From: a virus
DNA: 24,308 bases
Direction: 5' to 3' (one strand)
Virus record (IMG/VR): IMGVR_UViG_3300048571_000231
Coordinates: 1-24,308 of that record
The notes under the pieces: generated by a model
What the model was told of the DNA's origin: nothing
What the model saw: the letters and a program-made list of their open reading frames with translations, nothing else
The model's database searches: none
Program-made: the position numbers and the translations under genes
Part shown: positions 328 to 23,162 of the stretch, piece after piece
How positions within the stretch are numbered: the first letter of the stretch is position 1
Layout: the number at the start of each line of letters is the position of its first letter

Positions 328-374
328 GTAAGGTTCGACGATAGCAATAAACAACAACACAAGGAGCGGCGAAG

Positions 375-719: not shown

Positions 720-768
720 ATCAGATTGATTTCTAGACAACCCAACACCAGTTTGGAGGTAGTAATTG

Positions 769-2196: not shown

Positions 2197-2435
2197 TTGT
2201 TCGGGCGAAATTCAAATGTACCCAAGTTGAGCCTAGCAAACAAAGTGAAGCTGAAGGGTGTGCCACGATTCGGTTATCGGCCGTTTACGGCAATGATGAT
2301 CCGAATCATGAAAATACCAGTTTTTTCCGTTGGACACCAAGTGGAGATATTTGTCTTGGCATAGTCAATGTCCAAGCGGCAAAGCAATTCGAAGTGGGAA
2401 AAGAATACTACGTGGATTTCACACCATGTAATTGA
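2193..2435 (+). CDS. Small conserved phage hypothetical protein
   Basis: This 80-aa protein starts at ATG 2193, overlapping the TGA of the preceding gene (ATGA). The sequence opens MIVRAKFKC, has LSAVYGND and WTPSGDI in the middle, and ends EVGKEYYVDFTPCN. From memory, this resembles a family of short cytosolic phage proteins with a V-RAKF start and a YYVDF end, found near virion genes. I know of no demonstrated function. It has no signal peptide, unlike the genes on both sides, which makes the cluster look mixed: a phage gene between two exported cargo genes. An upstream in-frame start within the previous gene is less likely because the ATGA junction recurs throughout this genome. Confidence 0.6.
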   Translation: MIVRAKFKCTQVEPSKQSEAEGCATIRLSAVYGNDDPNHENTSFFRWTPSGDICLGIVNVQAAKQFEVGKEYYVDFTPCN

Positions 2436-2448
2436 AGGAGGTTCAGCC

Positions 2449-3147
2449 GTGAAAACGTTAGTTTCCATTGTCGCCTTTATTTCATGTGGTACCATGATAT
2501 TGGCGAACGATTGTCGTGTTAGAGCCGTGGTACACGCACCAGCAGCGAGAGTGTATTCGGCGCCAATTGTTCATTCGCAAGCATACGCGGCACCAGCCTA
2601 TGTGGCACCAGTGGCGTATAATAACTACGTGGCAACGTATGTAGCCGTTCCATTGGTTGTGCCAGCGTACAATGTATTCTATGGGGGGAATGACAATGGC
2701 ACGAAAGATGAAATCCTGAGACTGCGGGATGAAATCAGATCCATGCGGGATACTTTTCGTGCCCCTGCTCCCGTTGCTCCGATGCAGCCACCGGTAAATG
2801 ACGGACCTATTCGTGTTCCGGCGAACCTCAGTGAAGCTGTGGGGGCCTCATGGGGGGTGGGGAGACAGATGCCAAATCCGACTACCGGGCTTAGACAGCA
2901 GGGGCAAGTGCTGCACGACGGCGTGAAAATTCTCACAGCCTCGTGTTCGAAGTGCCATGATGGCACAATCGCAAAGACGAAAGGGGGTGGGGTTGTACTT
3001 ACGGAAGGTGGGGTGTTGGTGGCTTTGACCGATTCCCAAATGTTGGCAATCGTTAGGGAGATTTATTCAGGCAGGATGCCTAAGGGAAGTAAACTTACTG
3101 ATGCCGATGTTGGCACGGTAATAGAATGGGTTGACACAAGGAAATGA
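2449..3147 (+). CDS. Secreted cytochrome c-like protein (class I, C-terminal haem domain)
   Basis: The start is GTG 2449, preceded by GAAGGAGG at 2434-2441, giving 232 aa. The annotated order is: a signal peptide at 1-21 ending MILAND; a low-complexity Ala/Pro/Tyr/Val region at about 30-80; a short charged coiled coil (DEILRLRDEIRSMRDTF); a Pro-rich linker; and a C-terminal cytochrome c domain. CSKCH at residues 166-170 binds haem covalently, and Met210 in GRMPKG is well placed as the distal axial ligand, followed by a C-terminal helix (ADVGTVIEWVD). This fits a class I monohaem cytochrome for periplasmic electron transfer. It is the second CxxCH protein in three genes. The downstream gene begins at the end of this one. 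The haem domain is a confident call; its role in a phage is unknown. Confidence 0.75.
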   Translation: MKTLVSIVAFISCGTMILANDCRVRAVVHAPAARVYSAPIVHSQAYAAPAYVAPVAYNNYVATYVAVPLVVPAYNVFYGGNDNGTKDEILRLRDEIRSMRDTFRAPAPVAPMQPPVNDGPIRVPANLSEAVGASWGVGRQMPNPTTGLRQQGQVLHDGVKILTASCSKCHDGTIAKTKGGGVVLTEGGVLVALTDSQMLAIVREIYSGRMPKGSKLTDADVGTVIEWVDTRK

Positions 3148-3155
3148 GGTTCAAC

Positions 3156-3710
3156 ATGAAACGGGTTTTCGCATTGTTCGTTCTTACCGCGTTTGGCGTT
3201 GGTATGATTGCTAGTGATGCTTTGGCAAACGACTATGGCCAAATGCAGGTGAGGCAACGCTTTTTCCAACCGGTGCGACAATACTACCAGCCTGTACAAC
3301 AGGTGATTCAACAGGCACAACAGGATTATTGCCAACCTGCCCAACCTGTTCAACAAGTGATTCAGCAGGCACAACAGGACTGTCAACCTGTTGAACAGGT
3401 GTTTCAACGACAGGTGTATGCTCAACCTGTTTTTCAACGACAGGTGTTCGCGCAACCGGTAGCCTATGCTCAACCTGTTTTTCAACGACAGGTGTATGCC
3501 CAACCTGTTTATGCTCAGCCCGTGTTCGCCCAGGCGATCCAAGGCTATAGTTATGGGCAGTCTTTTCGTTCGCCGATTCGAAGTGCGATTTTCGGCGGCG
3601 GGTTCGGTCGTGGCTTGAACATCAATATCGGTGGGGGTAATCAATTCCGCCAACGCGGGCCGATAGGCAACGTGAACCGTGTCGTGGTTCGCCAGCGATT
3701 GCCCCGCTGA
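3156..3710 (+). CDS. Secreted Gln-rich repeat protein
   Basis: Two ATGs are possible, 3144 and 3156. I choose 3156 because GAGG at 3147-3149 is correctly spaced for it and the signal peptide then begins MKRVFALF. Residues 1-25 form a signal peptide ending ALAND. The mature part (about residues 40-130) consists of imperfect repeats with QPVQQVIQQAQQD and QPVFQRQVYA units, and it includes single Cys residues in the first two units. The C-terminal 50 residues are Gly, Arg and Asn rich (FGGGFGRGLNINIGGG). The composition suggests an unfolded or surface-adhesive extracytoplasmic protein. It follows the cytochrome gene almost without a gap, so the two are probably made together. Planctomycete genomes carry many such secreted repeat proteins; no function can be assigned. 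Confidence 0.6.
   Translation: MKRVFALFVLTAFGVGMIASDALANDYGQMQVRQRFFQPVRQYYQPVQQVIQQAQQDYCQPAQPVQQVIQQAQQDCQPVEQVFQRQVYAQPVFQRQVFAQPVAYAQPVFQRQVYAQPVYAQPVFAQAIQGYSYGQSFRSPIRSAIFGGGFGRGLNINIGGGNQFRQRGPIGNVNRVVVRQRLPR
3280..3535 (+). repeat. Imperfect tandem repeats within the Gln-rich gene
   Basis: Two kinds of repeat are visible. The first two units share CAGGCACAACAGGA and begin with CCTGTWCAACARGTGATT. The later units contain CAACCTGTTTTTCAACGACA followed by GGTGT, present at least twice exactly and once in part. Each later unit carries an ACCTGT and an ACAGGT that are reverse complements, so each copy could also form a small hairpin. The repeats keep the reading frame, and there are no unique spacers, so this is coding repetition and not a CRISPR array. 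Confidence 0.7.
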
Positions 3711-3727
3711 GTGAGTAATCCATCCTA

Positions 3728-3805
3728 GCAATGATCCCTATTGGGCGATTGGGGCATTGCGATGGGTTGGACGGGTGGCGATTCAGAAATGGGTTGCCAC
3801 CCCGT
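3728..3805 (+). terminator. Two adjacent hairpins in the intergenic gap, possible terminator
   Basis: The 170-base gap between the Gln-rich gene and the next start holds no supported gene. It contains GCAATG (3728-3733) pairing with CATTGC (3755-3760), extended inside by CCC/GGG. A second stem pairs ACGGGTGGC (3771-3779) with GCCACCCCGT (3796-3805), with one bulged C. The second hairpin is followed by TCTTGATTC, which is only moderately T-rich. This would separate the cytochrome group from the following genes. It may be a weak intrinsic terminator or an mRNA processing site. Confidence 0.4.
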
Positions 3806-3880
3806 TCTTGATTCTTTGCAAACTGTTTTGGTTCTTGATTGGTTGGTGGTTGCTTTTTGTTGTTCATGGGGAGGTAAAAA

Positions 3881-4213
3881 ATGGACACGTTTTTAATGTG
3901 GTGTGCACCGTGGCTTTTACTTGGGGGTCCGGCGATTTTTGTCATCGGGCATGCGGTCATTTACTGGGTGGATCGCCGAAGGCAACAGGTCTGGGATCAC
4001 ACGGCGAGAGCGTTTCACAAGCAGCGAAAGGCTCTTTCCTCGGCGTTTGAAAATGGCAAAAAGGAAGGCATCGCTCAGGAATTCGCTCGCCTCGAAAAAT
4101 TGCGAACCCTCGAAGAACCCGCCCCTGTTAAGGCTTGCCGTCGGCGGCGAGCAGCAGGTAGATTCCAACGGCGTGCGTCGTCCAACATTTGTATTCGTTC
4201 AAATCAGGGGTAA
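3881..4213 (+). CDS. Single-helix membrane-anchored basic protein
   Basis: This 110-aa protein starts at ATG 3881 after GGGGAGG at 3870-3876. Residues 5-29 form one hydrophobic segment (CAPWLLLGGPAIFVIGHAV). A charged helical region follows (about residues 32-80), with many Arg, Lys and Glu, and then an Arg-rich tail containing CRRRRAAGRFQRR. The tail would stay in the cytoplasm under the positive-inside rule. I do not recognise the family. The size, single N-terminal helix and coiled region are compatible with a spanin-like or holin-accessory protein, but there is no decisive motif. An alternative overlapping frame (3903-4256) lacks a ribosome-binding site. Confidence 0.5.
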   Translation: MDTFLMWCAPWLLLGGPAIFVIGHAVIYWVDRRRQQVWDHTARAFHKQRKALSSAFENGKKEGIAQEFARLEKLRTLEEPAPVKACRRRRAAGRFQRRASSNICIRSNQG

Positions 4214-4218
4214 ATTCC

Positions 4219-5091
4219 ATGGCAAAAAGAAAATCGCTAAAGTCTGGCAAGAATGATTTTCAGGCTTGCTCGATTAAGACGCTTCCCGAAGAAATTCTAA
4301 TTGAAGCGTCAGAAACAGCGGTATTCATAAATCCTGCCAACGCGGTTGCGATCATGGCGGCGCTTGGCTTTGGTTTCACGATGCTGCCACCTGCCTACAT
4401 CGCGGCAATCACCAGTAAATACTGGGGTCCAAAAGTCATGCTGACGGTTGGCTTCATGGAGTCGATCACCGATGAAATCGCCAATAGAATCATCGGCTAT
4501 ATGAACCGTTGGAAAGATCGGGGTGCGTCGGTACTCTTTACCCGGACGAAGACCGATCCCCAAGTTAGAATCACAAGATCAGGCGACGGGTACTGGTCTT
4601 ATCTTGGTACCGACATTCTGCACGTCCCAAAAAATCAACCTACGATGTGCCTATCGGGAATCACGATGCGTACTTCGGATGCCGAATGCGAGAGGGTGAT
4701 CGTCCATGAGGCAGGGCACACTTTGTCCTTCCCTCACGAGCATATGCGTAGGGATTTGGTGCAACTTCTAGATCGTGAAAAAACTATTGCCGAATTCATG
4801 CGGACCCAAGGCTGGTCTAGACAAGAAGTAATCAATCAGGTATTGACACCACTGGATGAAGCCTCACTTATGTCTACGCCAGTCGATCAAGATTCCCTGA
4901 TGTGTTACCAAATTCCAGGGAATTGCACGAAAAGCGGACAGCCTATTAAGGGAGGGTCCCGTCTTAGTGAATCCGATTGGACTTTCGCTGCCAGGAGCTA
5001 TCCGCCATCTACGGGACCGATCGATCCACCGCCTACGGCTAGGCGTCTTGTAGTTGAGTTTACCGGCGATTATAGAGTGCTCACCGCGTAA
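4219..5091 (+). CDS. Astacin-like (M12 family) zinc metallopeptidase
   Basis: This 290-aa protein starts at ATG 4219 with AGGGG upstream, 5 bases after the previous stop. The zinc-binding motif is H163-E-A-G-H167-T-L-S-F-P-H173-E, matching the astacin/metzincin pattern HExxHxxGFxHE except that Ser replaces the usual Gly. Glu164 would be the catalytic base. The expected Met-turn follows at residues 226-230 (SLMCY, Met228 and Tyr230), matching astacin SxMHY except for Cys in place of His. Upstream segments such as DGYWSYLGTDI fit the metzincin beta-sheet. The N-terminus is polar and basic (MAKRKSLKSGKN), and no standard Sec signal is seen. It should cleave proteins, perhaps host envelope protein or virion precursors. 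The enzyme class is clear; the phage role is inferred. The Ser-for-Gly change may affect the helix turn but not metal binding. Confidence 0.85.
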   Translation: MAKRKSLKSGKNDFQACSIKTLPEEILIEASETAVFINPANAVAIMAALGFGFTMLPPAYIAAITSKYWGPKVMLTVGFMESITDEIANRIIGYMNRWKDRGASVLFTRTKTDPQVRITRSGDGYWSYLGTDILHVPKNQPTMCLSGITMRTSDAECERVIVHEAGHTLSFPHEHMRRDLVQLLDREKTIAEFMRTQGWSRQEVINQVLTPLDEASLMSTPVDQDSLMCYQIPGNCTKSGQPIKGGSRLSESDWTFAARSYPPSTGPIDPPPTARRLVVEFTGDYRVLTA

Positions 5092-5119
5092 AGAAACCAA
5101 TAACGAATCGAGGTGACGC

Positions 5120-5515
5120 ATGGAAACCGCTCTCGCTTTTTCCCTGGCAATCTCCCTCAGTACGGCAGCCGAAACAATGGAGTTGTACCCTCAATTCCCA
5201 AGCTACGGCGATTGTGCGAAAGTGGTGGCGTGGTGCGTGAAAGAAACTTGCGACATCGACCACGAAATCACGCGCGCGCAAAGTCTGCTATCCGGCTGGG
5301 ATTTAGAGATTGAGTTGCCCGCAATAAATGTTCTTCGTGAGCGGCAACGAGGACTAAATGAGGCCCGTGAGGTATGGTATTGTGCCTGGTGGCTCAAGAC
5401 TGTGCTCAGTGAAACTTATCCACTGTTCGTGCAAACAGTGCACCACAAATTGAGATCCATGCTTTCCGAGGACGATTTCGAACGGGGGCGGCTGCCGCTG
5501 CCATACGCACGATAA
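5120..5515 (+). CDS. Unidentified 131-aa protein
   Basis: ATG 5120 is preceded by GAGGTGA at 5110-5116. The 131-aa product begins with a weakly hydrophobic Ala/Ser/Leu stretch (residues 2-17) that could be a poor signal peptide. The rest is mainly helical and charged, with Cys in YGDC, AWCVKETCD and WYCAWW, and several Trp residues. No catalytic motif or known domain is recognised. It lies between the metallopeptidase and a holin-like membrane protein in the same orientation. Its base composition is more GC-rich than that of the capsid genes, as is that of its right neighbour. A role in lysis or as a peptidase partner is only suggested by position. Confidence 0.5.
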   Translation: METALAFSLAISLSTAAETMELYPQFPSYGDCAKVVAWCVKETCDIDHEITRAQSLLSGWDLEIELPAINVLRERQRGLNEAREVWYCAWWLKTVLSETYPLFVQTVHHKLRSMLSEDDFERGRLPLPYAR

Positions 5516-5573
5516 AACCGGATTGGCGGGCCGGGTAATTCCCGCCGAAACTGCAATAGGAGAGGATTTACCT

Positions 5574-5951
5574 ATGTGGTTCAACTCATTGAAGTGGGTT
5601 GCGATTTTCGCGGGTGTTGCCTTTGCCATTATTGGCGTTGGCGCAGTCGCCCTCTTTCACGCGGTCTCGATAGGGACCGTACCTGTGTCGGTCGTGGCTG
5701 AATGGTATGCCTGGGCGAATGCTTGGCACACCTACCTTGCTGGGTTCGCTGGAGCTTACCTTGTGTCGGGACCATTGGCCCGATTTGGCGTGCCCGCTCT
5801 TTGGAATATGGCGTGGTCTCGCGTGATTGCCGGAATGCAATCGGTGATGAAAGCCGCGCAGCCTCCCGCTGTAGACATGGAAAAGATGGTGAGGGAGATC
5901 GTGGCTGCCCAACTTGAGCAAGCCACTTCACCAAAAATCGTGCTGCGTTAG
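5574..5951 (+). CDS. Holin-like multi-helix membrane protein
   Basis: The start is ATG 5574, preceded by AGGAGAGG at 5559-5566, giving 125 aa; the longer frame from 5523 lacks a signal. Residues about 7-30 form a strong transmembrane helix, and about 48-68 form a second (HTYLAGFAGAYLVSG). The segment at 70-92 is amphipathic. The C-terminus is a charged helix with EKMVREIVAAQLEQ, followed by a short basic end. The size, two N-terminal helices and charged cytoplasmic tail fit a class II holin or a small membrane-organising protein, but there is no diagnostic motif. It is the last gene before the regulatory gap, and a hairpin follows its stop. Confidence 0.5.
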   Translation: MWFNSLKWVAIFAGVAFAIIGVGAVALFHAVSIGTVPVSVVAEWYAWANAWHTYLAGFAGAYLVSGPLARFGVPALWNMAWSRVIAGMQSVMKAAQPPAVDMEKMVREIVAAQLEQATSPKIVLR

Positions 5952-5960
5952 TCAGCCATT

Positions 5961-5990
5961 AGAGGTACCGACTGTAAAGCCGGTACCTCT
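5961..5990 (+). terminator. Perfect 10-bp hairpin after the accessory block
   Basis: AGAGGTACCG (5961-5970) and CGGTACCTCT (5981-5990) are exact reverse complements with a 10-base loop. The hairpin begins 9 bases after the stop of the holin-like gene. It is followed by ATCTTTC and not a true T run, so an intrinsic terminator is likely but not textbook. The loop reads ACTGTAAAGC, which resembles a tRNA-Tyr anticodon loop by chance; no other tRNA arms are present. Confidence 0.55.
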
Positions 5991-6011
5991 ATCTTTCAAT
6001 ATCCAAGTGAT

Positions 6012-6071
6012 CTCCGGGCAGATGTCGCCTGAGGTGTTGCAGGTTCGTGGATGTCTGTCCCGGAGTTTTTT
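6012..6071 (+). terminator. GC-rich hairpin followed by six T's, probable Rho-independent terminator
   Basis: CTCCGGGCAG (6012-6021) pairs with CTGTCCCGGAG (6055-6065), with one bulged T, and TTTTTT follows at 6066-6071. The 33-base interior can form a small CCTG/CAGG stem (6028-6031 with 6040-6043). The strong stem plus T run matches a bacterial intrinsic terminator. The long structured interior also allows a short stable RNA ending here. Confidence 0.65.
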
Positions 6072-6129
6072 GATGCGACATTAGGTTTACGTCGTATTTG
6101 GGAATCGTTCATCGATTATACCAATTCTC

Positions 6130-6158
6130 TTGTTCTAGGGAGGCTGATCCTTTATAAT
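6130..6158 (+). promoter_or_regulatory. Sigma70-like promoter for the capsid operon
   Basis: TTGTTC at 6130-6135 and a perfect TATAAT at 6153-6158 are separated by exactly 17 bases. Transcription would start near 6165, just before the ribosome-binding site AAGGGAGGG (6165-6173) and the ATG at 6181, so the leader would be only about 15-20 bases. The promoter sits directly after a terminator and before the first head gene, which makes it a credible start for late structural transcription. The -35 box matches the consensus at only three positions, so an activator may be needed. Confidence 0.6.
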
Positions 6159-6180
6159 CTACGAAAGGGAGGGAATTTGC

Positions 6181-7668
6181 ATGGCACAAGAATTTCAAAA
6201 TATCCGCTTTACCTTGAATGCTGCGGCAAAAGTGCGGTATTCGAAGTTGGAAGGAAAAGACTATGCCGTGGTGCCCACGGTAATGTTGGTGGAAGGGGTG
6301 CATTACGGTAACATGGGTCCATTGTTTTATCGTGGCTCCACAATTGGTAGAAACACGGAAAACTGGAACCACAAACCGGTGGTGAACTATCATCCTGAAA
6401 TTGCCGGAAAAAAAGTCAGTGCGGCGAATCCAGCGATTCTGGAAAAGCAACGAACTGGGTTTGTCTTGAACACCCAATATAAAGCCAAGTTGAAAACCGA
6501 ATCTTGGCTTGATATTGCCAAATGTGAAATAGTGGACGTTCGCATTATGGAGCATGTTCGAAATGGCACGCCGATGGAAGTGTCCACTGGACTATCTTAC
6601 ACCCCAGACAATAAAGTCGGTGTTTGGAATGGTGAAGAGTATTCCTCGGAAGTGATTGAAATAGTCCCAGATCATCTAGCGTTATTGCCAGATCAAACTG
6701 GGGCTTGCAGTCTCAAGGATGGTGCCGGTTTGCTTGTGAATGTGGCGGATGATTTTCCCCCACAATTGAGCCTGGATTTCAACGCTAAGATAAAAGAACA
6801 GTTATCGGCATTGAGATTGATGGTTCAAAATGAAATGTCCAATGACGATTTGTTTAGCGCTTTGCTGCGAACCGTCAGAGCCAGTTTGGAAACATTTGGT
6901 ATATCTTGGGATGGATATATCGTCGATGTGTTCCCAAAGTTCGTGGTGTATTCGTCCCGTGGTACTTTGTACAAAGTCGCCTATAAGGCAAGCGATATGC
7001 AGGCTACCTTATCTGGCGATCCCGTAGTGGTCGTTCGAAAGTACAGTTATGTTACCGAGAATGGATTTTCAGTGAATGTCGCTGGTGATCCCATTCCAGA
7101 ACTCCAAAAGGAAGAAATCAAGATGGCAACCAATCAGTTTGATCCGAAGCCTATTGTGGATGGCCTTATCCTTGCCAATGCTTTCCCCGAAGGTGATCGT
7201 GAATTTCTTATGACCCAGCCGAAAGATCGATTGGATAGATTCGTGGAAATGGTTGCCAACAAGAAGGTACCTGTTGCCAACACTGTTCTCAAGGAAGTGG
7301 TCATCACGCCACAACAAAAGAAATCGAACGATGTCGCGGCGTATCTGTCCAATAGCGATATGCCACAGGAAATGAAGGCATTGATTTCTAATGCGCTGGT
7401 GCAACAGGAATCGCAGAAAACCAAATTGGTGGATGCCATTCTTGCCGTGCCTACCAATCGTTTCCAGAAAGAATACCTTGTTACTGCCGATGTTCAGGTG
7501 CTTGAAGGCATGCTTGAACTTGCCACCAATTCGCAACAATCTCACCAATCAAATGGTGGTGGGTCGTTCTTCGGTGCCAATACGGGACCTTCCATTCTGA
7601 CACCCAAGAAGCAACAGGCAGCCAATTCTGCCAATGACGATTTCCTAGAGATTCTCGAAACCCCGTAA
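6181..7668 (+). CDS. DUF2213-type prohead protease with C-terminal scaffold-like domain
   Basis: This 495-aa protein starts at ATG 6181 after AAGGGAGGG. Residues 1-185 resemble DUF2213 phage proteins thought to be capsid maturation proteases. Visible landmarks are NWNHKPVVNYHPE, RTGFVLNT, a GTPMEVSTGLS segment and a conserved DHLALLPDQTGACS segment. His in DHLALL and Ser in EVSTGLS are candidate catalytic residues by analogy with herpesvirus-type prohead proteases. The middle (about 200-310) is less clear. The last 180 residues are helical and Gln/Asn/Lys rich, ending in a Gly/Ser linker and a charged tail, and look like a scaffold. An internal ATG with its own ribosome-binding site lies at 7123. 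The decoration and major capsid genes follow directly, as expected. Confidence 0.75.
   Translation: MAQEFQNIRFTLNAAAKVRYSKLEGKDYAVVPTVMLVEGVHYGNMGPLFYRGSTIGRNTENWNHKPVVNYHPEIAGKKVSAANPAILEKQRTGFVLNTQYKAKLKTESWLDIAKCEIVDVRIMEHVRNGTPMEVSTGLSYTPDNKVGVWNGEEYSSEVIEIVPDHLALLPDQTGACSLKDGAGLLVNVADDFPPQLSLDFNAKIKEQLSALRLMVQNEMSNDDLFSALLRTVRASLETFGISWDGYIVDVFPKFVVYSSRGTLYKVAYKASDMQATLSGDPVVVVRKYSYVTENGFSVNVAGDPIPELQKEEIKMATNQFDPKPIVDGLILANAFPEGDREFLMTQPKDRLDRFVEMVANKKVPVANTVLKEVVITPQQKKSNDVAAYLSNSDMPQEMKALISNALVQQESQKTKLVDAILAVPTNRFQKEYLVTADVQVLEGMLELATNSQQSHQSNGGGSFFGANTGPSILTPKKQQAANSANDDFLEILETP
7123..7668 (+). CDS. Possible nested scaffold protein from internal start
   Basis: In the frame of the DUF2213 protein, ATG 7123 is preceded by AAAGGAAG at 7107-7114, 8 bases upstream. 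It would give a 181-aa product starting MATNQFDPKPIVDG. The predicted helical, charged, Gly-free composition suits a scaffold, and the terminal NGGGSFFGANTG linker plus acidic end could contact the capsid protein. Phage lambda makes scaffold Nu3 from an internal start within protease gene C, so the arrangement has precedent. No separate scaffold gene is seen between the protease and the capsid gene, which supports the idea. It is an inference from start context only. Confidence 0.4.
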   Translation: MATNQFDPKPIVDGLILANAFPEGDREFLMTQPKDRLDRFVEMVANKKVPVANTVLKEVVITPQQKKSNDVAAYLSNSDMPQEMKALISNALVQQESQKTKLVDAILAVPTNRFQKEYLVTADVQVLEGMLELATNSQQSHQSNGGGSFFGANTGPSILTPKKQQAANSANDDFLEILETP

Positions 7669-13609: not shown

Positions 13610-14004
13610 CAGGGGAACGCCTTAGGTGGTTTGAATTGGCAAGTCACCTAAAGAAACCTCTACAGTACGTGCAAAGGCACACCACCAGCACTGAGTTTGT
13701 TGAGTGGTGTGCCTTTCTTGATTTACTCTGGGAAAAAAATCATAAGTGGGAATATTATCTGGCTGCTATAATGATTAAGATCGAACAGGCGTTCGCATCC
13801 TCTGAATCTGGTGCCTCCGATCTTACCGTTGACGATAGATTGTTCAAATTCAAAATTGGCGCCGAAAAGACGGAAGATGATCTTTCCCAGGAAGAAATCG
13901 AGCAAGAAATGGCAATTCAACGAGCTACTTTTGAAGGCGTTATGGCTCGCAATAAAAAACGGCATGAAGTTTTATCTGCTAAACCGAAAAAGGCAGTAAC
14001 ATGA
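13603..14004 (+). CDS. Tail assembly chaperone, gpT-like extension reached by frameshift
   Basis: This is the minus-one part of the G/GT fusion. After slippage it reads RLTGERLRWFELASHLKKPL and onward to TGA 14002-14004, giving about 133 added residues and a fusion of about 276 aa. The segment is strongly helical, with EFVEWCAFLDLLWEKNHKW, a DLTVDDRLFKFKIG strand region, and an acidic to basic C-terminus. The sequence and place fit the lambda gpT-like part of the GT chaperone, which recruits the tape measure to the tube. The upstream end of this frame is TGA 13573-13575, so no ATG is available. TTG 13636 after AGGTGG could start a separate product. The fusion is the better explanation. Confidence 0.7.
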   Translation, partial: RLTGERLRWFELASHLKKPLQYVQRHTTSTEFVEWCAFLDLLWEKNHKWEYYLAAIMIKIEQAFASSESGASDLTVDDRLFKFKIGAEKTEDDLSQEEIEQEMAIQRATFEGVMARNKKRHEVLSAKPKKAVT

Positions 14005-16946
14005 TAAATTTCCACGCAGGATCATTGGTAGTTCGTATCGTGGCGGATGCCACTAGGTTTCATTCCGGTATAGCAGGTGCTAGTTCAGGTCTAGGTATTT
14101 TTTCCGCTGCCGTTGGTAAATCGGCAGCGGGGTTGCATTCTCAACTCATTCCATCGGTGAGTGCCGCGATCTACAATGTGGTATCTCTTACCAAATCCAT
14201 TTTTAGCGCTGGCATGGCATTGATGACTCCTTGGAGATGGAATGCCGGTTCCCTTTTACTCAATACCGCCATGGCGATCCCCAAAACAATGGATTTTGCC
14301 ATCGCTAGTGTTTATAGACTACAAATGGCAGTAATGAGTTTGGGGAAAACTCTTACTTTTGCCTTGACTGCCCCACTGGCTATATTTGGTGTGATGAGTG
14401 TTAAGGCATGGGCTGATTTCGACAAAGCTATGATAAACGCCACGGCAGCCGCTGGCGGAGTTGGCAGACGAATGCGTGAAGAACTAGAGAAAACCATCTT
14501 CGACATCGCCAGAGTGAGTATAACCTCACCAAAGGACATGGCACAAGCGTACTACTATTTAGTCAGTGCCGGTCTATCGATTCAACAGTCCATGGCATCC
14601 CTACCGGTGCTTGAACGATTTTCAGTAGCAGGCATCATGGACATGCGACGTGCCACTGATGTGATCGTGGATATTCAATCCGCTTTGAACATGGTAAGTG
14701 CCGATGCCACGGAACATGCGCTAAATATGACTAGGTTGACTGACGTTATCACCACCGCGTCGATCCAATCCAATGCCACAATCGAACAGTTGGCGGCATC
14801 GTTGACCAATAAGTCTGCCTCTGCCATGAGGCTATTCAACATTTCATTAGAAGAAGGTACCGCGGCATTGATGGTTTATGCCCAACAGGGTACCAAAGCT
14901 GAAATCGCAGGTGAACGATTGGCAATGGTATTACGGGATTTGCAGGCCGTGAATATCATCAATCGCTCGGAATGGCTTCACCAGGGAATTTCAGTGTATG
15001 ATTTAACGGGAAAAATGTTACCATTGGCGGAAATTATCGGTCAATTGGAAGATCGCATGCGAGGCATGAACGATGAAAGTAAACGTGCCTTGTTGATTGC
15101 CTTGCGATTCCCAAGTCGTTCCATTAGCGCGTTGTTGCCTTTGATTGGTAGAAGCGATCAACTGTCCCGTTTCACGGATGAGCTTACCAGAAACGCGGCA
15201 GGTGCCACTGAACGCGTAGCTAGGGAAATGCTTCAATCGTTTTCTGCCCAAACAAGTATTTTCTGGAATCATGTGGTTATGGCGGCAATCGAAGCTGGCA
15301 GACAATTGGCTCCCATTATCGCCAAAATCAATAATATGTTGAAAGGCATGGCGGAATATTGGTTGGCATTGAATCCAGCCATTCGTAATGGATTGATGGG
15401 TTTTCTATTCGTAGCGGCGTTAGTGGGACCGGTAATGTTGTTGCTGGGATTGATTCTAATGCTGGGAGCGGCATTGGTTACCTTCTTAATCAATCCATTG
15501 GCATGGTTAGCGGTGATTGGCATGGGATTGTTGGTAAGGAACACGGAATCCTTATCGAAATTGTGGGACAGCGCCACGACTAACTTCGGTACGTTTATTT
15601 CCGAAGCTGGTAAATACCTTTACAACTTCAAAGAGAATTTCGATATTCTTTCCGATTGGGTATACAACAATTGGCCTGCCATTTTACGGGACGTTGGGGT
15701 GATCGCTCTTGCGGGATTGTTGGTTGTCCTACACAAGATTTGGCTAGGATTTAGGGTCATTGGGGAAGGTATTGGTGCCAATTGGAAGGAAATCATAAAT
15801 GGGTTAGTAAACGGTACTATGATATTTTCCCGGAATTTGTTGGCGAATTTGATAACGCTAACTCCCGCTATTATGCGATTAACCACTGAATGGGGTGGTC
15901 AATTCGCATTGATTGTTGGCAATTTAGTGGCCCTTACCATGCATATGACCCAAAGAATGACTGCAAATATGGTGACCTTGATAGTATACATTGTGCAATT
16001 TCTCGGTGAAGCGATAACACGATTATCACCGTTGATTATAACGGTTTTCGCCAATATGGGGGTAAACCTAAGACGGTTTTTAATCAATAGTGCCAATGAT
16101 ATAACCAGGGCTTTCAATCCAGTCGCGGGACTGGCATTACCTGCTAATTTGCCATACGTCGATCTCTTGTCTGGCATAGATTTGGATAAAGTGGGCAGAC
16201 AAGTGAGACAAACGTGGGTCCGTATATGGGATGGTGGCAGGGGATTTCAAAATGTGATTGCCGATAATTTCCAATTTCCATTCGCGGTAAATTTAGCCAG
16301 GGGATGGAATAACTTTGTGGCGGAGGTTCAAGCGCAATGGCCGAATTTGGTGGGATTATTCGATGGATTCGATTTCAACTTTGGTGATCCAGCCAATTGG
16401 TTGGCGGCATGGAATCGTGCCGTTCACGATTTCACGCATTCAGGTACTTTCCGAGAATTCGTGAATATGTTAGGTGGCTTGGGAACCCTAATGCCTAATT
16501 TGAACAATAGAATACCTACTAGAGTCGAAGAATTGGGAAGTCACACAGGTATGTTAGGCATGCTGTCCAATCCAATGGGTGGATTGGCAGGTATGGGGAA
16601 TGCTTCAGCATTTGGTAACTTTGGGATTGGTAGAAATGCCATTGGGGCTATTAGTGGTCTGGGTGTTGGTTCCCAGGGAACCGGCATGGCTGGACTGAAT
16701 GCCGCTACATTGGCGTTGGTAAACGGAATGAGTCAGGTGGGATCTAGAGGTGGTGCCCGAGCATTCCCTGAAGTCAGCAATATGTCGGGAAGCCAATTCG
16801 AACAAGTAAGCACCAGACGATTCGAATTGGATGGTCCATACGGGTTGGCGAACACTCCAAAGGGTGGAATGCACGTACGGGATCCCGAAGCCCACCGACT
16901 TCTCGACAATATTAGACAAGAAATCAATCCAGGTTTGGGGAATTAA
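14001..16946 (+). CDS. Tape measure protein
   Basis: This is the longest gene, 981 aa from ATG 14001 in an ATGA overlap. The N-terminal third resembles the TP901-type tape measure region: DFDKAMINATAAAGG, KDMAQAYYYLVSAGLS and ATVEQL-like helices with LANKSAS-type repeats. A hydrophobic block at about 464-512 (LFVAALVGPVMLLLGLILML) is the usual membrane-active segment that helps DNA cross the host membrane. The rest alternates helical and low-complexity Asn/Gly/Met-rich stretches. At 0.15 nm per residue the tail would be about 147 nm, a general rule of thumb. It follows the chaperone genes in the standard order. No muralytic domain is visible, so cell wall passage may depend on other proteins. 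Confidence 0.85.
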   Translation: MINFHAGSLVVRIVADATRFHSGIAGASSGLGIFSAAVGKSAAGLHSQLIPSVSAAIYNVVSLTKSIFSAGMALMTPWRWNAGSLLLNTAMAIPKTMDFAIASVYRLQMAVMSLGKTLTFALTAPLAIFGVMSVKAWADFDKAMINATAAAGGVGRRMREELEKTIFDIARVSITSPKDMAQAYYYLVSAGLSIQQSMASLPVLERFSVAGIMDMRRATDVIVDIQSALNMVSADATEHALNMTRLTDVITTASIQSNATIEQLAASLTNKSASAMRLFNISLEEGTAALMVYAQQGTKAEIAGERLAMVLRDLQAVNIINRSEWLHQGISVYDLTGKMLPLAEIIGQLEDRMRGMNDESKRALLIALRFPSRSISALLPLIGRSDQLSRFTDELTRNAAGATERVAREMLQSFSAQTSIFWNHVVMAAIEAGRQLAPIIAKINNMLKGMAEYWLALNPAIRNGLMGFLFVAALVGPVMLLLGLILMLGAALVTFLINPLAWLAVIGMGLLVRNTESLSKLWDSATTNFGTFISEAGKYLYNFKENFDILSDWVYNNWPAILRDVGVIALAGLLVVLHKIWLGFRVIGEGIGANWKEIINGLVNGTMIFSRNLLANLITLTPAIMRLTTEWGGQFALIVGNLVALTMHMTQRMTANMVTLIVYIVQFLGEAITRLSPLIITVFANMGVNLRRFLINSANDITRAFNPVAGLALPANLPYVDLLSGIDLDKVGRQVRQTWVRIWDGGRGFQNVIADNFQFPFAVNLARGWNNFVAEVQAQWPNLVGLFDGFDFNFGDPANWLAAWNRAVHDFTHSGTFREFVNMLGGLGTLMPNLNNRIPTRVEELGSHTGMLGMLSNPMGGLAGMGNASAFGNFGIGRNAIGAISGLGVGSQGTGMAGLNAATLALVNGMSQVGSRGGARAFPEVSNMSGSQFEQVSTRRFELDGPYGLANTPKGGMHVRDPEAHRLLDNIRQEINPGLGN

Positions 16947-16948
16947 CA

Positions 16949-17824
16949 ATGGCACGCGCTAGAGTTGACAATATCACCATGTTGAGTGCCGAGGAATACC
17001 TTGGCGCATTCACCAAGGTAGTCCGTAGAGCTAGGGTAGTTGGTTGCGTCACTAAAGGATATAATATCCTGAATGAGGCGTTGAACGCGACAGATATGCC
17101 CCAATACGGCCACGGACTGGTAGGCGTGAACGGTGCCGATAGTTCCATGGCACATTTGAGATGTGCCGGAAGATCACCAAAAATTATCGCCAATAATGCC
17201 GTGGAAGTAGATCTTACCTACGAAAGTCTTTTGGCGGATGCCAATCAGAATTTGGATAATACTGTATTACCAGATGGGCAAAAGAATATATTTGCCATCA
17301 TATATGGTACCCATAAAACTTCATTGGTACAAAAGAAAACCAATTTCTACCGTGAGAATGGTGTGGGACCTAGGATTCAATTGTTCGTGTCCCACACATT
17401 TCCAAGAGGTAATGGGGAAGAGCAAGCGGGGGTTCTCAAGAACCAAGGTGGGGAAATAGATATTCACGAACCCCAAAGCAATTACAAATTCGCAGGGGTA
17501 GTGAATACACCATACCCATGGCTACTTGAAGATGCCTTGATTGGATCGGTGAATTCCACCGCATGGATGAATAGGGTGCCATTTACCTGGATGTGTACTG
17601 AGGTATCTTACCGGATGCTTCGATTGTACCGATACCGATTCGAATTCGAATTTCAAAGCAATGAAGATTTGTGGCAACCCGAAATAGTGTTCATCGACGA
17701 AAGAACAGGTAGGGTACCTGAGCGGTTGGTAGATGGGGTAGGTAAAAAGAAAATCCCATATTATCGTCCACGTAATTTCAATTTGGCGTTTGGGTCCATG
17801 TTCGAAGGATGGGCTGGAATATAA
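16949..17824 (+). CDS. Putative distal tail protein
   Basis: This 291-aa protein starts at ATG 16949, two bases after the tape measure stop, with GGGGAA upstream. It lies where the distal tail protein usually follows the tape measure. The sequence has MARARVDNIT, many aromatic and basic residues, NFYRENGVGPRIQLFVSHTF, YKFAGVVNTPYPWLLEDAL and a repeated RYRFEFEFQSNEDLW strand region. It contains few Cys and no signal peptide. I cannot match it to the Dit or gp17-like families by sequence alone, so the name rests on gene order and length. Confidence 0.5.
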   Translation: MARARVDNITMLSAEEYLGAFTKVVRRARVVGCVTKGYNILNEALNATDMPQYGHGLVGVNGADSSMAHLRCAGRSPKIIANNAVEVDLTYESLLADANQNLDNTVLPDGQKNIFAIIYGTHKTSLVQKKTNFYRENGVGPRIQLFVSHTFPRGNGEEQAGVLKNQGGEIDIHEPQSNYKFAGVVNTPYPWLLEDALIGSVNSTAWMNRVPFTWMCTEVSYRMLRLYRYRFEFEFQSNEDLWQPEIVFIDERTGRVPERLVDGVGKKKIPYYRPRNFNLAFGSMFEGWAGI

Positions 17825-17838
17825 ACAAAAGGTGGATG

Positions 17839-19911
17839 ATGCCTGGATTATTCAGTAAACCAAGTGAGTTTGTGCCGGGGAATAGAAGTCCACTAAGCGC
17901 TGGTGCCTTGAATAAGATTTTGTCGGCCACAAGTAGGCAGGTAATTGGTGGTACCCCAGTTTCCATGTTTGGCGATAGGGTTGTGCTAAATCGCAATCAA
18001 GAAGTAGTGGCACGTAGAAAACAAGCGGCACCTTTCCGAGTCGTATCTGAGGATTTCGATTGGCTGTTGTGTGTGCCATGGATTCCAATTGGTACTTTGT
18101 ATGCCCACGATTCTACTTTGAATTCCGATTCCGCCACATTCGATACTTCACAATACGTCTACGTGGCGAAGCCACGATTGCTCCAGCGGGCTCCATTCGA
18201 CGGAAAGGTCGTAACGTTTCTGGAAGGGTATACCGAGACGTATGTCTACGATGAAGAGGTGTTTTCATACCGTAAAACGTATGGTAGTCCCTATGGCGAA
18301 TACGTGGATGAGTATCTATCCCCTGATTACTTTACGGGGGATTTAATTTGGGCAATCCGTGGTGTCACGGGATTGATGGAGCCTACCAATCCTTTGTTGG
18401 TTTTTCCGGGAGTAATTCTGTCCCCCGTGGAATTGGGAATTTCCTTTGATATTGAATTGTTGTATACAATTGGCATTGGAGCATTTCTTAAAATTGAGTG
18501 GGAATCCATCCCAGATGTTTTGGGGAATGTCACTAAATACACAATGCAGGTAGAAGTGGTTTCCGTGGATCTTGTCACGGGAGTAGTTGTTGTCAGTGTT
18601 GTTAATCCCACGCAAAATTTGCCAGTAGTGAGCACTCTAGTTGGGCTGTCATTGGAAGTTCCCATAGTGTGGGAAGACATAAATGAAGGGGCACGTAAAT
18701 GGCTCACCGGTGGTGCGCCAATATACAGTTTTTTCAAATTGGTGAGTTTATCTCCCTACTTCGATAAATACTATTTGGCTATTTATCAAATAAGCCAGGC
18801 TACCGAAACAGGAGATATAGTATGGCAAGATGTTGCTTCGGATGTTTACAAGTATGCCTTTGTCGAATTGATAAATTTGACGACACCTAATTCCGATTTG
18901 GATACCGTGTATGTGGGATTTCCCACAAAAGGCGATATTAGAAAACTGACTCATCCTGTCCATGGGGATCTTTGGCTGTATGACGTTTTGTATTACAGCA
19001 ATCTTTGTAAAATACCGGTAGTGATTCAGATTGAAGGTGGGGATAACGCCAGTGGACATGATTGGACGGCATTGCAGCAGGTAGTTGGCACTCCCAATAC
19101 ATGGCAACCTGACGCAGCTGGATACACCAATGTTTCCACAGGTGTTAAGATGTACGAATTGAATGAAAACGATGTAGGGGCGGGACCTGTTCGTTATCTG
19201 GGACACTACGACATTTGTAGGCAGGTAGCTTTTTTTTTATTCAGTCTTAGTGAACTCACTGGTAGAGTCATCGTCATGTTTCTAGAATCTTCGCCTAGTA
19301 TTGGGGATTTGTATTCGGCAAAAATCTACACCGAAAATGTATCCTCGGGAACGGGCCTTGTGGAATGGGTAGCTGGTTCCGAGGTTTACGCATTCCCGAT
19401 CAACGCGAATCTTATTCCGACGTTGGAAACAAAATATTTCGCACGGCGTTCGGATGGGGAAGAGATCGTAAATAGCCGACTTGTTTACACGGTAGACCGT
19501 TGCTGTGATGCGCCAATCGATCAGAGTTCGAGCGGTGGGACGGATAACTGTTTGTGCTTATTCCCGGAAATAATGACGGCGACTTTGGATGATGGCAGTC
19601 TCACTCCTCAAGAATACACAATTACAATGTCAGGGGGAGGGAACTCCACGCAGCAAGAATGGGAGGGTGGGGGTACTTATAATTGGGGGACAGGGCATTC
19701 TTGCACAATCGCAATATACTTGGTGTGTGTTGCTAACCCACCTGCCGGAACCCGGTCCATTCTTGCGTCAGTAACTTTTTCCGCGTGCGATGAGACCCCG
19801 CCCATCACTGATGCTGTCAGTTTCGTACGGGAATGCGACGATCCCAATGGCTTGTACTTCAATAATTCGTCATGGGAAACGGGCGGTGGATTCGAATTGA
19901 GTATAGGATAA
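17839..19911 (+). CDS. Large tail tip/receptor-binding region protein
   Basis: Two adjacent ATGs exist at 17836 and 17839. I use the second, with AAAGGTGG at 17828-17835 as ribosome-binding site. The protein is 690 aa. The N-terminus reads FVPGNRSPLSAGALNKIL, a pattern I associate with phage tail proteins that begin with a P-x-N-R attachment segment. The middle is beta-rich with many Tyr, Val and Asp. The C-terminal 210 residues are different: they contain paired Cys (DRCC), NCLCL, HSC and ECDD, and many Gly, Thr and Ser residues. Residues 485-556 are homologous to the next protein. The gene is A/T-rich at first and becomes more GC-rich near the end. It probably contributes to the tail tip or side fibres; no enzyme motif is seen. 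Confidence 0.55.
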   Translation: MPGLFSKPSEFVPGNRSPLSAGALNKILSATSRQVIGGTPVSMFGDRVVLNRNQEVVARRKQAAPFRVVSEDFDWLLCVPWIPIGTLYAHDSTLNSDSATFDTSQYVYVAKPRLLQRAPFDGKVVTFLEGYTETYVYDEEVFSYRKTYGSPYGEYVDEYLSPDYFTGDLIWAIRGVTGLMEPTNPLLVFPGVILSPVELGISFDIELLYTIGIGAFLKIEWESIPDVLGNVTKYTMQVEVVSVDLVTGVVVVSVVNPTQNLPVVSTLVGLSLEVPIVWEDINEGARKWLTGGAPIYSFFKLVSLSPYFDKYYLAIYQISQATETGDIVWQDVASDVYKYAFVELINLTTPNSDLDTVYVGFPTKGDIRKLTHPVHGDLWLYDVLYYSNLCKIPVVIQIEGGDNASGHDWTALQQVVGTPNTWQPDAAGYTNVSTGVKMYELNENDVGAGPVRYLGHYDICRQVAFFLFSLSELTGRVIVMFLESSPSIGDLYSAKIYTENVSSGTGLVEWVAGSEVYAFPINANLIPTLETKYFARRSDGEEIVNSRLVYTVDRCCDAPIDQSSSGGTDNCLCLFPEIMTATLDDGSLTPQEYTITMSGGGNSTQQEWEGGGTYNWGTGHSCTIAIYLVCVANPPAGTRSILASVTFSACDETPPITDAVSFVRECDDPNGLYFNNSSWETGGGFELSIG

Positions 19912-19914: not shown

Positions 19915-20694
19915 ATGGCATCTTCACTACTTGCAAACCTGATGTTTACGTCACGAACTCCCGCGATAGGATCGCTACACCCGGCAACGCGATACTCGCA
20001 TGCCGTGGACGCGGCCGGTCTTGTGCAATGGATTCCGCAAGCAGATGTGCTGGCGTTCGACATCAACAACGGCAATCCGCCACTGGAGACGATGTTCAAG
20101 GCTCGCAAAGCCCGCGTCATTGGCGGGGCGTCTGTGTTGGGCAAGCCGGTATACAAGGTCGATTCGTGTTGCCTGCTAATTGATGATGACGAGTATTATT
20201 TGTGGGACTGTGAAAGTTTCACGACATCCCCGCAAAGCGCGACTCTGCATTACTACAATCATTACTACGAGGGTTATGACGTAATTGTCAGGACTATGGG
20301 CATCGCAATGATTCCCACTACACCTGGACAAACGATGGGGGAGGGGTCATGGGTAATCCGGTATGAGAATGGCCCATGGTCGTATTCATCCCGAATATTT
20401 TATACTGCCCGCGCTACATGCATTACAATTGGGAATGAAGGGTCGGGGTTATTCTGGGAACTTTGGTTTTCAGCCGACCAGTTCATCGATAACGAGGGAA
20501 TTGAAGGGCCAAAAACCCCACAGACTGGCACCACCGTATACCAGAGTTTTGTGCCATTCACCGAAGATCAAACAATCAAGGGTGGGTGCTGCGCACCGAA
20601 CGGATGCGTAAGCAACCCGTGCCAAGGAGGCAGAAGGCAATGGTTTGCTACGAACGCTAGTTATCACAACATTCCATTTTGGCTTCAAGCATAG
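19915..20694 (+). CDS. Cys-containing virion protein, paralogue of the preceding gene's C-terminal module
   Basis: This 259-aa protein begins at ATG 19915, three bases after the previous stop; the ribosome-binding site is weak (AGGATAAC), which suggests coupling. Residues 15-86 align with residues 485-556 of the 690-aa protein: both share PxIGxLxxA, a GLVxW turn, AFxIN, PxLET, an AR pair and VYxVDxCC. The following part diverges. It is aromatic-rich (YYLWDCESF, HYYNHYYEGYD), and near the C-terminus GGCCAPNGCVSNPC occurs, which could form disulfides. Base composition is higher in GC than upstream. It likely belongs to the tail surface, perhaps assembling with its larger relative. The function is unknown. 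Confidence 0.55.
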   Translation: MASSLLANLMFTSRTPAIGSLHPATRYSHAVDAAGLVQWIPQADVLAFDINNGNPPLETMFKARKARVIGGASVLGKPVYKVDSCCLLIDDDEYYLWDCESFTTSPQSATLHYYNHYYEGYDVIVRTMGIAMIPTTPGQTMGEGSWVIRYENGPWSYSSRIFYTARATCITIGNEGSGLFWELWFSADQFIDNEGIEGPKTPQTGTTVYQSFVPFTEDQTIKGGCCAPNGCVSNPCQGGRRQWFATNASYHNIPFWLQA

Positions 20695-20703
20695 GAGGAT
20701 AAG

Positions 20704-22410
20704 TTGGCAATTCCATGCCGAGGCTGCCTCGGAGAAGGCCCGGACGCCCAATATGGCGTTGCCGCCTCTGCGTCTAGCCTTGTTTCCGAGTGGCTCTTGT
20801 CCGGCATCAAAGACCCGATGCCGACGCCGGTTCACGATCCGAAAGATTGGACCTGGCACACGCGGTTCGCGACGACTGCCGAACACGTCGCGGCACTAGA
20901 AGCCCTGGGACAAATGGACCTTCCCCCTCACGAGGCCAAAGGCGAGGGCATGGTCTACGTAGGTGGTGATATTCCAGGGGAACCATACAAACAGTATGGC
21001 TTGGGTGTAGCTGCCGGAATCCACATGGCTCGATGGTCTGGGTATCACGGACCCATCGAGTGGTGGTTCGATTCGAAAAAGGAAACCGCTCGCCAGTACG
21101 ACATGCGGGACCTGGGAGACGTTCGAATTAGGGATATTCAGGATTTGAATCCATTGCCAAGAATGCGTGTAGGGTGGCCGAATAAACTCACGGCAATCGT
21201 CCATAGTGCATTTCGCCGCGTGTTGTTTTTGGACGCGGATGCCCACCTTGTGGCATCACCGGATACCCTGTTCTCTTTGCTGGACGAGGTAAGTTTTGTT
21301 CATTGGACGAAAAACGATATGCGGGCAGTAGTCGCCAGAGCTTGGCCTCATGGTGGTTTCGGTGGGAGTTTTGGTATCACGGGAGGTCAACTACTGATCG
21401 ACACGATAGCGGCTCGCAGATTGGTGGTAATAGCTCATTGGGTGAATCAACATGCTGATTATTACTATCCTTCCAAAACGCACAAGCAGGCTCAATATTA
21501 CCTGTTCGGCGACGAAGATACGTGGCCTTTGAGTTTTGCCGTCTGCAAACACTACGGGTATGTTTTCAAGACCCGAGACCTAGGCAAAACAGTCTACAGT
21601 AAGAACGGGTGCGAGTTTTCCCATGAGGGAAAAACACGAATTGCCCATTGGTCCAACAACAAAATGAATTCGAGCGGATGGCACCCGTTGCCGGAAAGCC
21701 GGTTCAAGTGTTCGGAACAAGCCGTGGCGATGAGGAACGAAGCATTGCGAGGCAGGGACCGAAAGGTCGTGGGCGCTCCCGCGCAGTGGCGATACCAAGA
21801 AGGGACTACCGATCTGAAGAGGTTCGGCATCATTGCCACGCGGAACGAATACCGATTGCCGGACACGTTCGAGCCAGAAGACGTGATTCTTGACGTAGGT
21901 GGAAATCACGGTACCTTCACACATGCCTGCCATCAGCGAGGTGCTGGGAGAATCGTAAGCGTGGAACCGCATCCAGACAACTTGGTAATCCTGCGGCATA
22001 ATTGCCCCTATTCGGAAATACATGAGGTAGCCCTATGGTCGGAAGAAAACAGGGACAAACTCACGCTCATCGATCACAGTACCACCAACACAGGCGACGC
22101 CAGATTAGGTGTAGGAGGCATGGCGGTCACGGTCGAAGGATTCGACACATTCGTTCACCGTGTTCGTGGTGACCAGCCTATTCGCTTTCTCAAGCTAGAT
22201 TGCGAGGGAGCCGAGATCCCAATTTTGATGACTTCGCAACGCCTCAGACAAGTCCAAGAGATTGCCTGCGAGGTACATACCGAAGCTTCACAGTGGGACA
22301 TGATTATCAAGGCAATACGCGGCAGACTTTCCGATGAGGGATTCAGTATAATCACTGAAGTGGAACAATTCAAAGGGCAGGGACTGATTTTCGCAAAAAG
22401 AGGTAATTAA
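20704..22410 (+). CDS. Glycosyltransferase-FkbM methyltransferase fusion
   Basis: This 568-aa protein starts at TTG 20704, five bases after a perfect AGGAGG. Residues about 80-340 form a GT-A type glycosyltransferase: MVYVGGDIP entry, PNKLTAIVHSAFRRVLFLDA leading to the D177-A-D179 metal-binding motif, GGFGGSFGITGGQLLIDT as acceptor loop, and GDEDTW at 269-274. Mannosyl- or galactosyltransferase families have this layout. Residues about 385-568 are an FkbM-type SAM methyltransferase: VILDVGGNHGTF (motif I), VSVEPHPDN (motif II), and FLKLDCEGAEIPIL (motif post-III). The two enzymes would transfer a sugar and then methylate it. The short N-terminus has CRGC. It sits among tail genes in a GC-rich island. 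Likely targets are tail proteins or host surface glycans; which one cannot be told. A single polypeptide is supported by the continuous frame. Confidence 0.85.
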   Translation: MAIPCRGCLGEGPDAQYGVAASASSLVSEWLLSGIKDPMPTPVHDPKDWTWHTRFATTAEHVAALEALGQMDLPPHEAKGEGMVYVGGDIPGEPYKQYGLGVAAGIHMARWSGYHGPIEWWFDSKKETARQYDMRDLGDVRIRDIQDLNPLPRMRVGWPNKLTAIVHSAFRRVLFLDADAHLVASPDTLFSLLDEVSFVHWTKNDMRAVVARAWPHGGFGGSFGITGGQLLIDTIAARRLVVIAHWVNQHADYYYPSKTHKQAQYYLFGDEDTWPLSFAVCKHYGYVFKTRDLGKTVYSKNGCEFSHEGKTRIAHWSNNKMNSSGWHPLPESRFKCSEQAVAMRNEALRGRDRKVVGAPAQWRYQEGTTDLKRFGIIATRNEYRLPDTFEPEDVILDVGGNHGTFTHACHQRGAGRIVSVEPHPDNLVILRHNCPYSEIHEVALWSEENRDKLTLIDHSTTNTGDARLGVGGMAVTVEGFDTFVHRVRGDQPIRFLKLDCEGAEIPILMTSQRLRQVQEIACEVHTEASQWDMIIKAIRGRLSDEGFSIITEVEQFKGQGLIFAKRGN

Positions 22411-22671
22411 ATGACTAAAACCAAAGAAGTCGATTTAGCAAACGAAGAAGATTGGAAGTTGGCAGATTTCTGGCAGATTCCAATGCAAACCGCGCAAGAA
22501 CTTTTCATGGGAGTGAAACAAGTAGATTCGGATTTGGTTGTGTTGAAATCCACCGATTTCCAAATTGCCATGGTGTGTGTCAATCTATGTATCGATACGG
22601 CAAGAAAAACAAGAGAACAATGGAAACCAGGTGTCAAAAACGAACGTACCGAGATAACTGTACATTGGTAA
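22411..22671 (+). CDS. Small acidic hypothetical protein
   Basis: This 86-aa protein starts at ATG 22411 directly after TAA 22408-22410, with AGAGG in the end of the fusion gene upstream. The sequence has an acidic Lys/Glu-rich start (MTKTKEVDLANEEDWKLADF), a middle amphipathic part with VDSDLVVLKSTDFQIAM, two Cys near VCVNLC, and a basic end. No signal peptide or membrane segment is seen. No family is recognised. It is tightly coupled to the fusion gene, yet its base composition resembles the A/T-rich phage genes, so it may mark the right border of the GC-rich island. Confidence 0.5.
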   Translation: MTKTKEVDLANEEDWKLADFWQIPMQTAQELFMGVKQVDSDLVVLKSTDFQIAMVCVNLCIDTARKTREQWKPGVKNERTEITVHW

Positions 22672-22757: not shown

Positions 22758-23162
22758 ATGAAAATTGGAACTGTGGTACGTAACGCGATGGTGGATTCGG
22801 CAGTGGATCTAATCGACGCTGGGGCAGGTGCTGGAACAATCGAGATTAGAACAGGAGCACCTCCTACCAACGTGGCTGACGCTGATTCTGGCACGCTGCT
22901 GGCCACATTGACCATGACTGATCCAGCATTTGGTTCGTCAGCCACTGGCACGGCTACTGCCAATTCCATCACTAGCGATACTAACGTCGATGCTAGTGGA
23001 ACGGCAGGTCATTTCAGGATAAAAGATTCGAATGCCGTTTCGTTATTCCAAGGTACTTGTGGTACCAGTGGGGCGGATTTGAATTTCAATACCGTCACAT
23101 TCGTGGCTGGTGGTACCTGTGCGATTTCTTCTCTAACCATGACACAGCCTGTGGGGACTTGA
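22758..23162 (+). CDS. Small beta-rich phage virion protein
   Basis: ATG 22758 follows AAAGGG at 22747-22752. The 134-aa protein resembles common phage virion proteins with this order: an N-terminal helix (RNAMVDSAVDLIDAG), GTIEIRTGAPP, SGTLLATLTMTDPAFGSSAT, an ATANSITSDTN strand, FRIKDSNAV, GTCGTSGADLNFN and a final beta hairpin. The GTS-DLN motif near the end is typical of those families as I remember them. Such proteins are usually encoded in the tail fibre region and are probably part of the tail tip or fibres. It overlaps the next gene at ATG 23162. Confidence 0.6.
   Translation: MKIGTVVRNAMVDSAVDLIDAGAGAGTIEIRTGAPPTNVADADSGTLLATLTMTDPAFGSSATGTATANSITSDTNVDASGTAGHFRIKDSNAVSLFQGTCGTSGADLNFNTVTFVAGGTCAISSLTMTQPVGT

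Follow-up and report, generated by a model that had tools for sequence, protein, structure and literature searches.

A predicted glycosyltransferase–FkbM methyltransferase fusion protein encoded in the tail module of an uncultivated phage

Gene content of the window

The window analysed here spans a complete IMG/VR virus record (24,308 bases). On the forward strand, at 20704..22410, it carries a gene for a 568-aa protein in which a GT71-like glycosyltransferase (GT) is followed by an FkbM methyltransferase. The gene lies in the structural (tail) region, as a first-pass annotation of the same DNA had proposed. The tape measure protein (981 aa, 14001..16946, +) was recognised by PF10145 (E 3e-29) and by PHROG tape measure families (E 3e-49), and its gene is followed by three genes, two of them Cys-rich, and then by the fusion gene, a small gene and a phrog_3758 gene. 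The two Cys-rich genes, both without a family match, encode a 700-aa putative tail protein with 11 Cys (17809..19911, +; assigned by position and composition) and, directly upstream of the fusion, a 259-aa putative tail protein with 8 Cys (19915..20694, +), either of which is a possible acceptor. On the 3′ side, an 86-aa protein without a family match (22411..22671, +) begins immediately past the fusion stop, and a virion structural protein of phrog_3758 (22758..23162, +; E 3e-31) comes after it. The fusion had also been described as lying between Cys-rich tail genes, which holds for the upstream pair but not for the downstream pair, with only 2 Cys in 86 aa and 2 in 134 aa.

Neither a terminase nor a portal gene was recognised in the window, and none was found upstream (1–6180) of the head protease gene at 6181–7668; the window is therefore probably a genome fragment, and these two genes may lie outside it. 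Two c-type-cytochrome-like genes are located left of the head genes, at 766–2196 (476 aa, CWRCH) and 2368–3147 (259 aa, CSKCH, PF13442). Similar cytochrome genes occur near phage-like genes in Gemmataceae-family genomes, i.e., near a phrog_3758-like gene in L150 and a tape-measure-like frame in L151, and the cytochrome-like genes may be a phage-borne cassette rather than host flank. An astacin-like metalloprotease (PF01400, E 1e-5; weak NCBIfam match) is encoded at 4189–5091, just ahead of the head genes.

The fusion gene and its product

The fusion gene is a single unbroken frame of 568 codons running from a TTG start at 20704 to a TAA stop at 22410, with a Shine-Dalgarno sequence, AGGAGG, at 20693..20698 (+), 5 nt 5′ of the start. 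The probability of 568 stop-free random codons at the base composition of the window is about 2e-14, so that the continuous frame noted in the first-pass annotation is borne out, and the DAD, GDED, VILDVGGNHG and FLKLDCEGAE motifs reported there were all found at the sites given below. The product begins with an extension of about 33 aa (20704..20802, +) that contains one CxxC, is predicted to be disordered (pLDDT < 50 for residues 1–29) and is missing in most viral relatives. The GT-A domain at aa 82–320 (20947..21663, +) and the FkbM domain plus its lead-in at aa 361–568 (21784..22407, +) follow. The maximum 19-residue hydropathy of the protein is 1.2, i.e., there is no hydrophobic segment of membrane-span length. 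An AlphaFold model of the whole protein was obtained with confidence (pLDDT 82.3) and matched GT71/GT8-type and class I methyltransferase folds.

Pfam PF11051 (Mannosyl_trans3) matched aa 82–191 with E 4e-6 and 26.8 bits against a gathering cut-off of 22, the match spanning only positions 3–114 of the 273 in the profile. The GT motifs are DAD at 177–179, GGQ at 227–229, GDED at 269–272, His315 and Lys320; 25 aligned relatives of the GT half share D177, D179, G228, G269, D270 and H315 without exception, and K320 almost without exception. The DxD, GGQ and GD segments together with a C-terminal His...Lys pair are what we take to fit retaining GT-A enzymes of GT8/GT71 type, in which D177, D179, H315 and K320 would presumably serve as metal/phosphate ligands. 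The model of this half (pLDDT 86.6) has a GT-A fold with the DxD, and its best PDB match in Foldseek is the GT71 mannosyltransferase MNT2 (7xjv, E 1e-8), with GT8- and GT24-type enzymes ranking next. MNT2, a yeast α-1,3-mannosyltransferase of GT71/PF11051, belongs to the same Pfam family and is the best solved fold match, but it shares only about 10% identity with the window GT and is a single-domain enzyme without a methyltransferase. By sequence family, the N-terminal half is a predicted GT-A glycosyltransferase of the GT71/PF11051 kind, with its chemistry taken from family membership.

For the C-terminal half, PF05050 (FkbM) matched aa 397–548 with E 5e-14 and 53.3 bits (cut-off 22.7), and NCBIfam TIGR01444 (fkbM_fam) matched with E 1e-16 and 61.2 bits (cut-off 37.7), while a profile search retrieved the FkbM structure 2py6. 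The SAM motif VILDVGGNHG lies at 394–403 and FLKLDCEGAE at 495–504, and the invariant residues of these DVGxxxG and KLDCEGxE motifs are kept in 11 relatives; active-site signatures are thus conserved in both halves. Members of the FkbM family modify sugars or small molecules. The nearest FkbM relatives (L104–L109) are stand-alone Gemmataceae-family proteins, whereas the FkbM domain in the window is joined to a GT.

Distribution of the fusion

Relatives were gathered from IMG/VR and genomes with a hand-made pattern, K..A....F..VLFLDAD, followed by alignments; a direct whole-protein search of viral and genome contigs relied on 8-residue patterns that are not conserved, and none matched. GT and FkbM in the same frame were found in 15 other viral contigs, i.e., L074 (703 aa) and 14 more, some of which are near-copies (L152, L155, L156, L159, L161, L162, L164, L166, L167, L168, L174, L175, L196 and L197), and in three frames (L102, L125 and L111) in two Gemmataceae-family (Planctomycetota) genomes. 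The homologues are therefore not confined to separate proteins with a frameshift at the join, and their full length rules out a frameshift or assembly artefact. About 35 viral contigs, and L035 from a Gemmataceae MAG, carry a related GT whose frame continues into a class I methyltransferase of a different type (VVDLGCGDG motif; Pfam Methyltransf_11/12/25). Unfused arrangements occur as well: L103 (311 aa) is a GT without a methyltransferase, in Zavarzinella (L139) the GT gene adjoins a gene with an FkbM domain at its end, and in phage L019 an FkbM gene comes after the GT gene.

In 50,697 deposited phage genomes, tblastn detected neither the fusion nor its GT domain; a relative used as query in the deposited phages gave FkbM matches only, and so did a plasmid search. 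A BFVD structure search found two proteins of uncultured Caudovirales, A0A6J5NND2 (E 3e-27) and A0A6J5SUQ0 (E 2e-17), that align across both domains; both are uncharacterised, the latter being annotated as FkbM, and the likeness is one of structural alignment. Cys-rich N-terminal modules stand ahead of the GT in L156, L159 and L175 and in L102, L111, L040 and L022, one with CxC...MNxWGxxGCxxH..EIVxHL and another with HGxCT...CCxxCxDY; these modules are without a family assignment and could bind zinc or the acceptor.

In total, GT–methyltransferase fusions were found in about 50 uncultivated viral contigs, and they lie in the tail module wherever that module is recognisable. A tape measure gene could be recognised 2–4 kb upstream in 10 contigs including the window; in L041, L062, L071, L074, L152, L155, L156, L164 and L174 it lies 2.2–3.1 kb upstream of the GT, and several other contigs have a long gene without a family match at the tape-measure place. 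The window proteins other than the fusion showed no similarity in those related contigs at E 1e-3, and the fusion is therefore a recurrent tail-module passenger of dissimilar phages. The chromosomal fusions in Gemmataceae genomes, in contrast, are surrounded by cellular genes, so that the fusion family is not tied to virions. Three loci on Gemmataceae-family chromosomes, L129 (11452–13680), L131 (5574–7523) and L139 (9541–11709), have a Ser/Thr kinase gene near a GT–FkbM fusion or GT/FkbM pair, and the order kinase, ~290-aa gene, GT is common to L131 and L139. The middle genes between kinase and GT in the Gemmataceae chromosomes showed no convincing mutual similarity. Serine/threonine kinases are common in Gemmataceae-type bacteria, and their proximity at these loci may be due to chance.

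Origin of the fusion

In the GT tree, the window protein sits in the lineage of GTs bearing the other methyltransferase (support 98/87), of which it is the sole sampled FkbM-bearing member, and all other FkbM-fused GTs form a separate deep lineage. Forcing the FkbM-fused GTs into a single origin costs 167 log-likelihood units (p-AU 6e-8); an earlier, smaller GT tree concurs (p-AU 1e-6), and a single origin is also rejected on the FkbM half (p-AU 0.013). Because the window GT forms a long branch, its exact neighbour is uncertain, but BLAST scores agree with the tree, at E ~1e-34 for the other-methyltransferase lineage vs. ~1e-16 or weaker for L074 and the chromosomal fusions. In a smaller tree, the FkbM half clusters with stand-alone proteins of the Gemmataceae family (97/94); in a larger one it is placed inside a wider clade, without resolution. 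The lead-in of a stand-alone FkbM protein (L106: PPHWRYRPRTLDARIL...NEYRLP) is recognisable at the join in the window (QWRYQEGTTDLKRF...NEYRLP), which looks like the addition of an entire FkbM gene to the end of the GT. Since the trees reject one common origin for the FkbM-fused GTs, the predicted GT and methyltransferase activities have been joined repeatedly. This recurrence is the strongest argument from computation that sugar transfer and methylation would serve one product.

Host of the phage

Relatives cluster in the family that includes the Gemmataceae MAG, with a match of any kind in 26 of 95 genomes, vs. 14 of 392 sampled across the phylum, where the matches were nearly all to the FkbM half only. 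A cytochrome-like protein of the window was matched in 58 of the 95 genomes of that family vs. 5 of a phylum sample of 294. By these sequence matches, the host is likely a planctomycete of the Gemmataceae kind. The capsid protein of the window was not detected in 102 genomes of the order to which the MAG belongs, and capsid searches either did not place the phage or gave distant matches only. Two GT71-like proteins were found in contigs of the JAIXLE01 record titled Bacteroidales (L036 and L037); this genome groups with the family of the Gemmataceae MAG, and the title looks wrong.

Comparison with known systems

Both domain families are already known, and so is the concept of a viral GT–methyltransferase. 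In chloroviruses, the terminal part of the capsid glycan is made by the GT and 2-O-methyltransferase domains of A064R (PMC9614988). This PBCV-1 protein is a single virus-encoded, cytosolic-type protein that combines GT-A and class I O-methyltransferase domains; a sugar attached by its GT part is capped by its methyltransferase part, and the product is the capsid glycan (PMC9614988). The window protein shares with it the presence of GT and methyltransferase in one viral protein. However, A064R has two GT domains (rhamnosyltransferases), belongs to a eukaryotic algal virus and has proven activity (PMC9614988); the likeness considered here is one of proposed function and of architecture. Flagellin glycosylation islands contain GTs with fused methyltransferase domains, and their FkbM genes vary between strains; these GTs are GT41 and GT2 instead of GT71, and the target is bacterial flagellin, with no phage gene involved (PMC4875605). 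Mycobacteriophages such as Che8 are reported to encode glycosyltransferases and to bear glycans on capsid and tail tube; the hosts differ, and no fused methyltransferase is mentioned in the passages on them (PMC11256854, PMC12619734). A search of the open-licence literature found no paper on such a phage fusion or on glycosyltransferases of planctomycete phages.

Proposed function and alternatives

From the domain families, the motifs and the location of the gene, we infer the enzyme activity, step order, donor, acceptor and role as follows. The GT71-like GT-A domain would transfer a sugar from a nucleotide donor in a metal-dependent manner, with retention of configuration by family expectation, and the FkbM domain would then O-methylate the added sugar (or its partner sugar) using S-adenosylmethionine, yielding a methyl-capped glycan. 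The tail-gene location and the lack of a membrane segment point to action in the cytosol during tail assembly, with tail or receptor-binding proteins of the phage itself as the likely substrates. The choice of acceptor is suggested by the conserved tail-module position and by the analogies with A064R, the mycobacteriophages and the flagellin islands. Such decoration would change the adsorption, stability or recognition of the virion. To this reading, that a soluble two-domain enzyme builds a methyl-capped glycan in the cytosol, the favoured acceptors being tail or receptor-binding proteins encoded by the phage, we assign a probability of about 0.5. The tail-module position would also suit a gene that merely requires late expression.

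The main alternative, which we regard as possible yet clearly the less probable, is that the methylated sugar is placed on an envelope glycan or surface protein of the host during infection or lysogeny, so as to alter the receptor or exclude other phages. Chromosomes of the Gemmataceae family contain fused and split relatives, in Zavarzinella as adjoining GT and FkbM genes and in other cases near large multi-GT proteins, which is consistent with such a role. Temperate-phage glycosyltransferases are established agents of serotype conversion (noted in PMC12619734). However, none of the membrane flippase or GT partners of a gtr cassette was recognised among the neighbours of the fusion, the window being a fragment, and the fusion itself has no membrane span. 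The gene also lies within the structural module, neither at an end nor by lysogeny genes, and the same place is kept in many dissimilar phages, some of which give no hint of lysogeny over the sequence read. Of the earlier interpretation, a genuine GT–FkbM fusion in the tail region, with conserved motifs and matching folds, is upheld; decoration of tail proteins, as against a host surface glycan, stays a proposal.

It is improbable that the gene is a host-derived metabolic or passenger gene, acting on a small molecule or a secreted polysaccharide or non-functional in the phage. Its closest FkbM relatives do stand alone in Gemmataceae-family genomes, and its GC content of 0.52–0.53 exceeds the 0.44–0.50 of most neighbours, but the motif residues are intact, the translation signals are clean and the tail-module position recurs in many phages. 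Its GC3 of 0.55–0.57 equals that of the capsid gene (0.57), and GC3 thus does not point to recent acquisition. Hypermodification of the phage genome by methylated sugars on modified bases is very improbable, since, well known as DNA-modifying phage glycosyltransferases are (reviews cited in PMC12619734), no DNA glycosyltransferase family was matched in Pfam, PHROGs or NCBIfam, the fold is of GT71/GT8 type, no base-modification gene was recognised near this tail-module location and the FkbM substrates given above for the family are sugars or small molecules.

Significance

What is new is the wide, tail-linked distribution of the fusion in uncultivated phages, the presence of alternative methyltransferases on related GTs and the occurrence of the fusion in Gemmataceae-family genomes. 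To our knowledge, phages of Gemmataceae-type planctomycetes are almost unknown, and if the enzyme decorates virions, the fusion would be a marker for them. It would then also be a test case for methylated tail sugars, with respect to the evasion of glycan-binding or glycan-degrading defences, receptor tuning and stability. The occurrence of fusions across dozens of dissimilar uncultured phages suggests that methylated sugars are put by many phages on the surface of their particles or of their host. More tentatively, and with the odds against it, these proteins may form an extensive and as yet undescribed family of enzymes, encoded in the tail modules of uncultivated planctomycete phages, that build methyl-capped glycans on virions; on related GTs, swapping of the methyltransferase between unrelated types (FkbM or Methyltransf_11/12/25-like) would diversify the cap in the way flagellin glycans are diversified.
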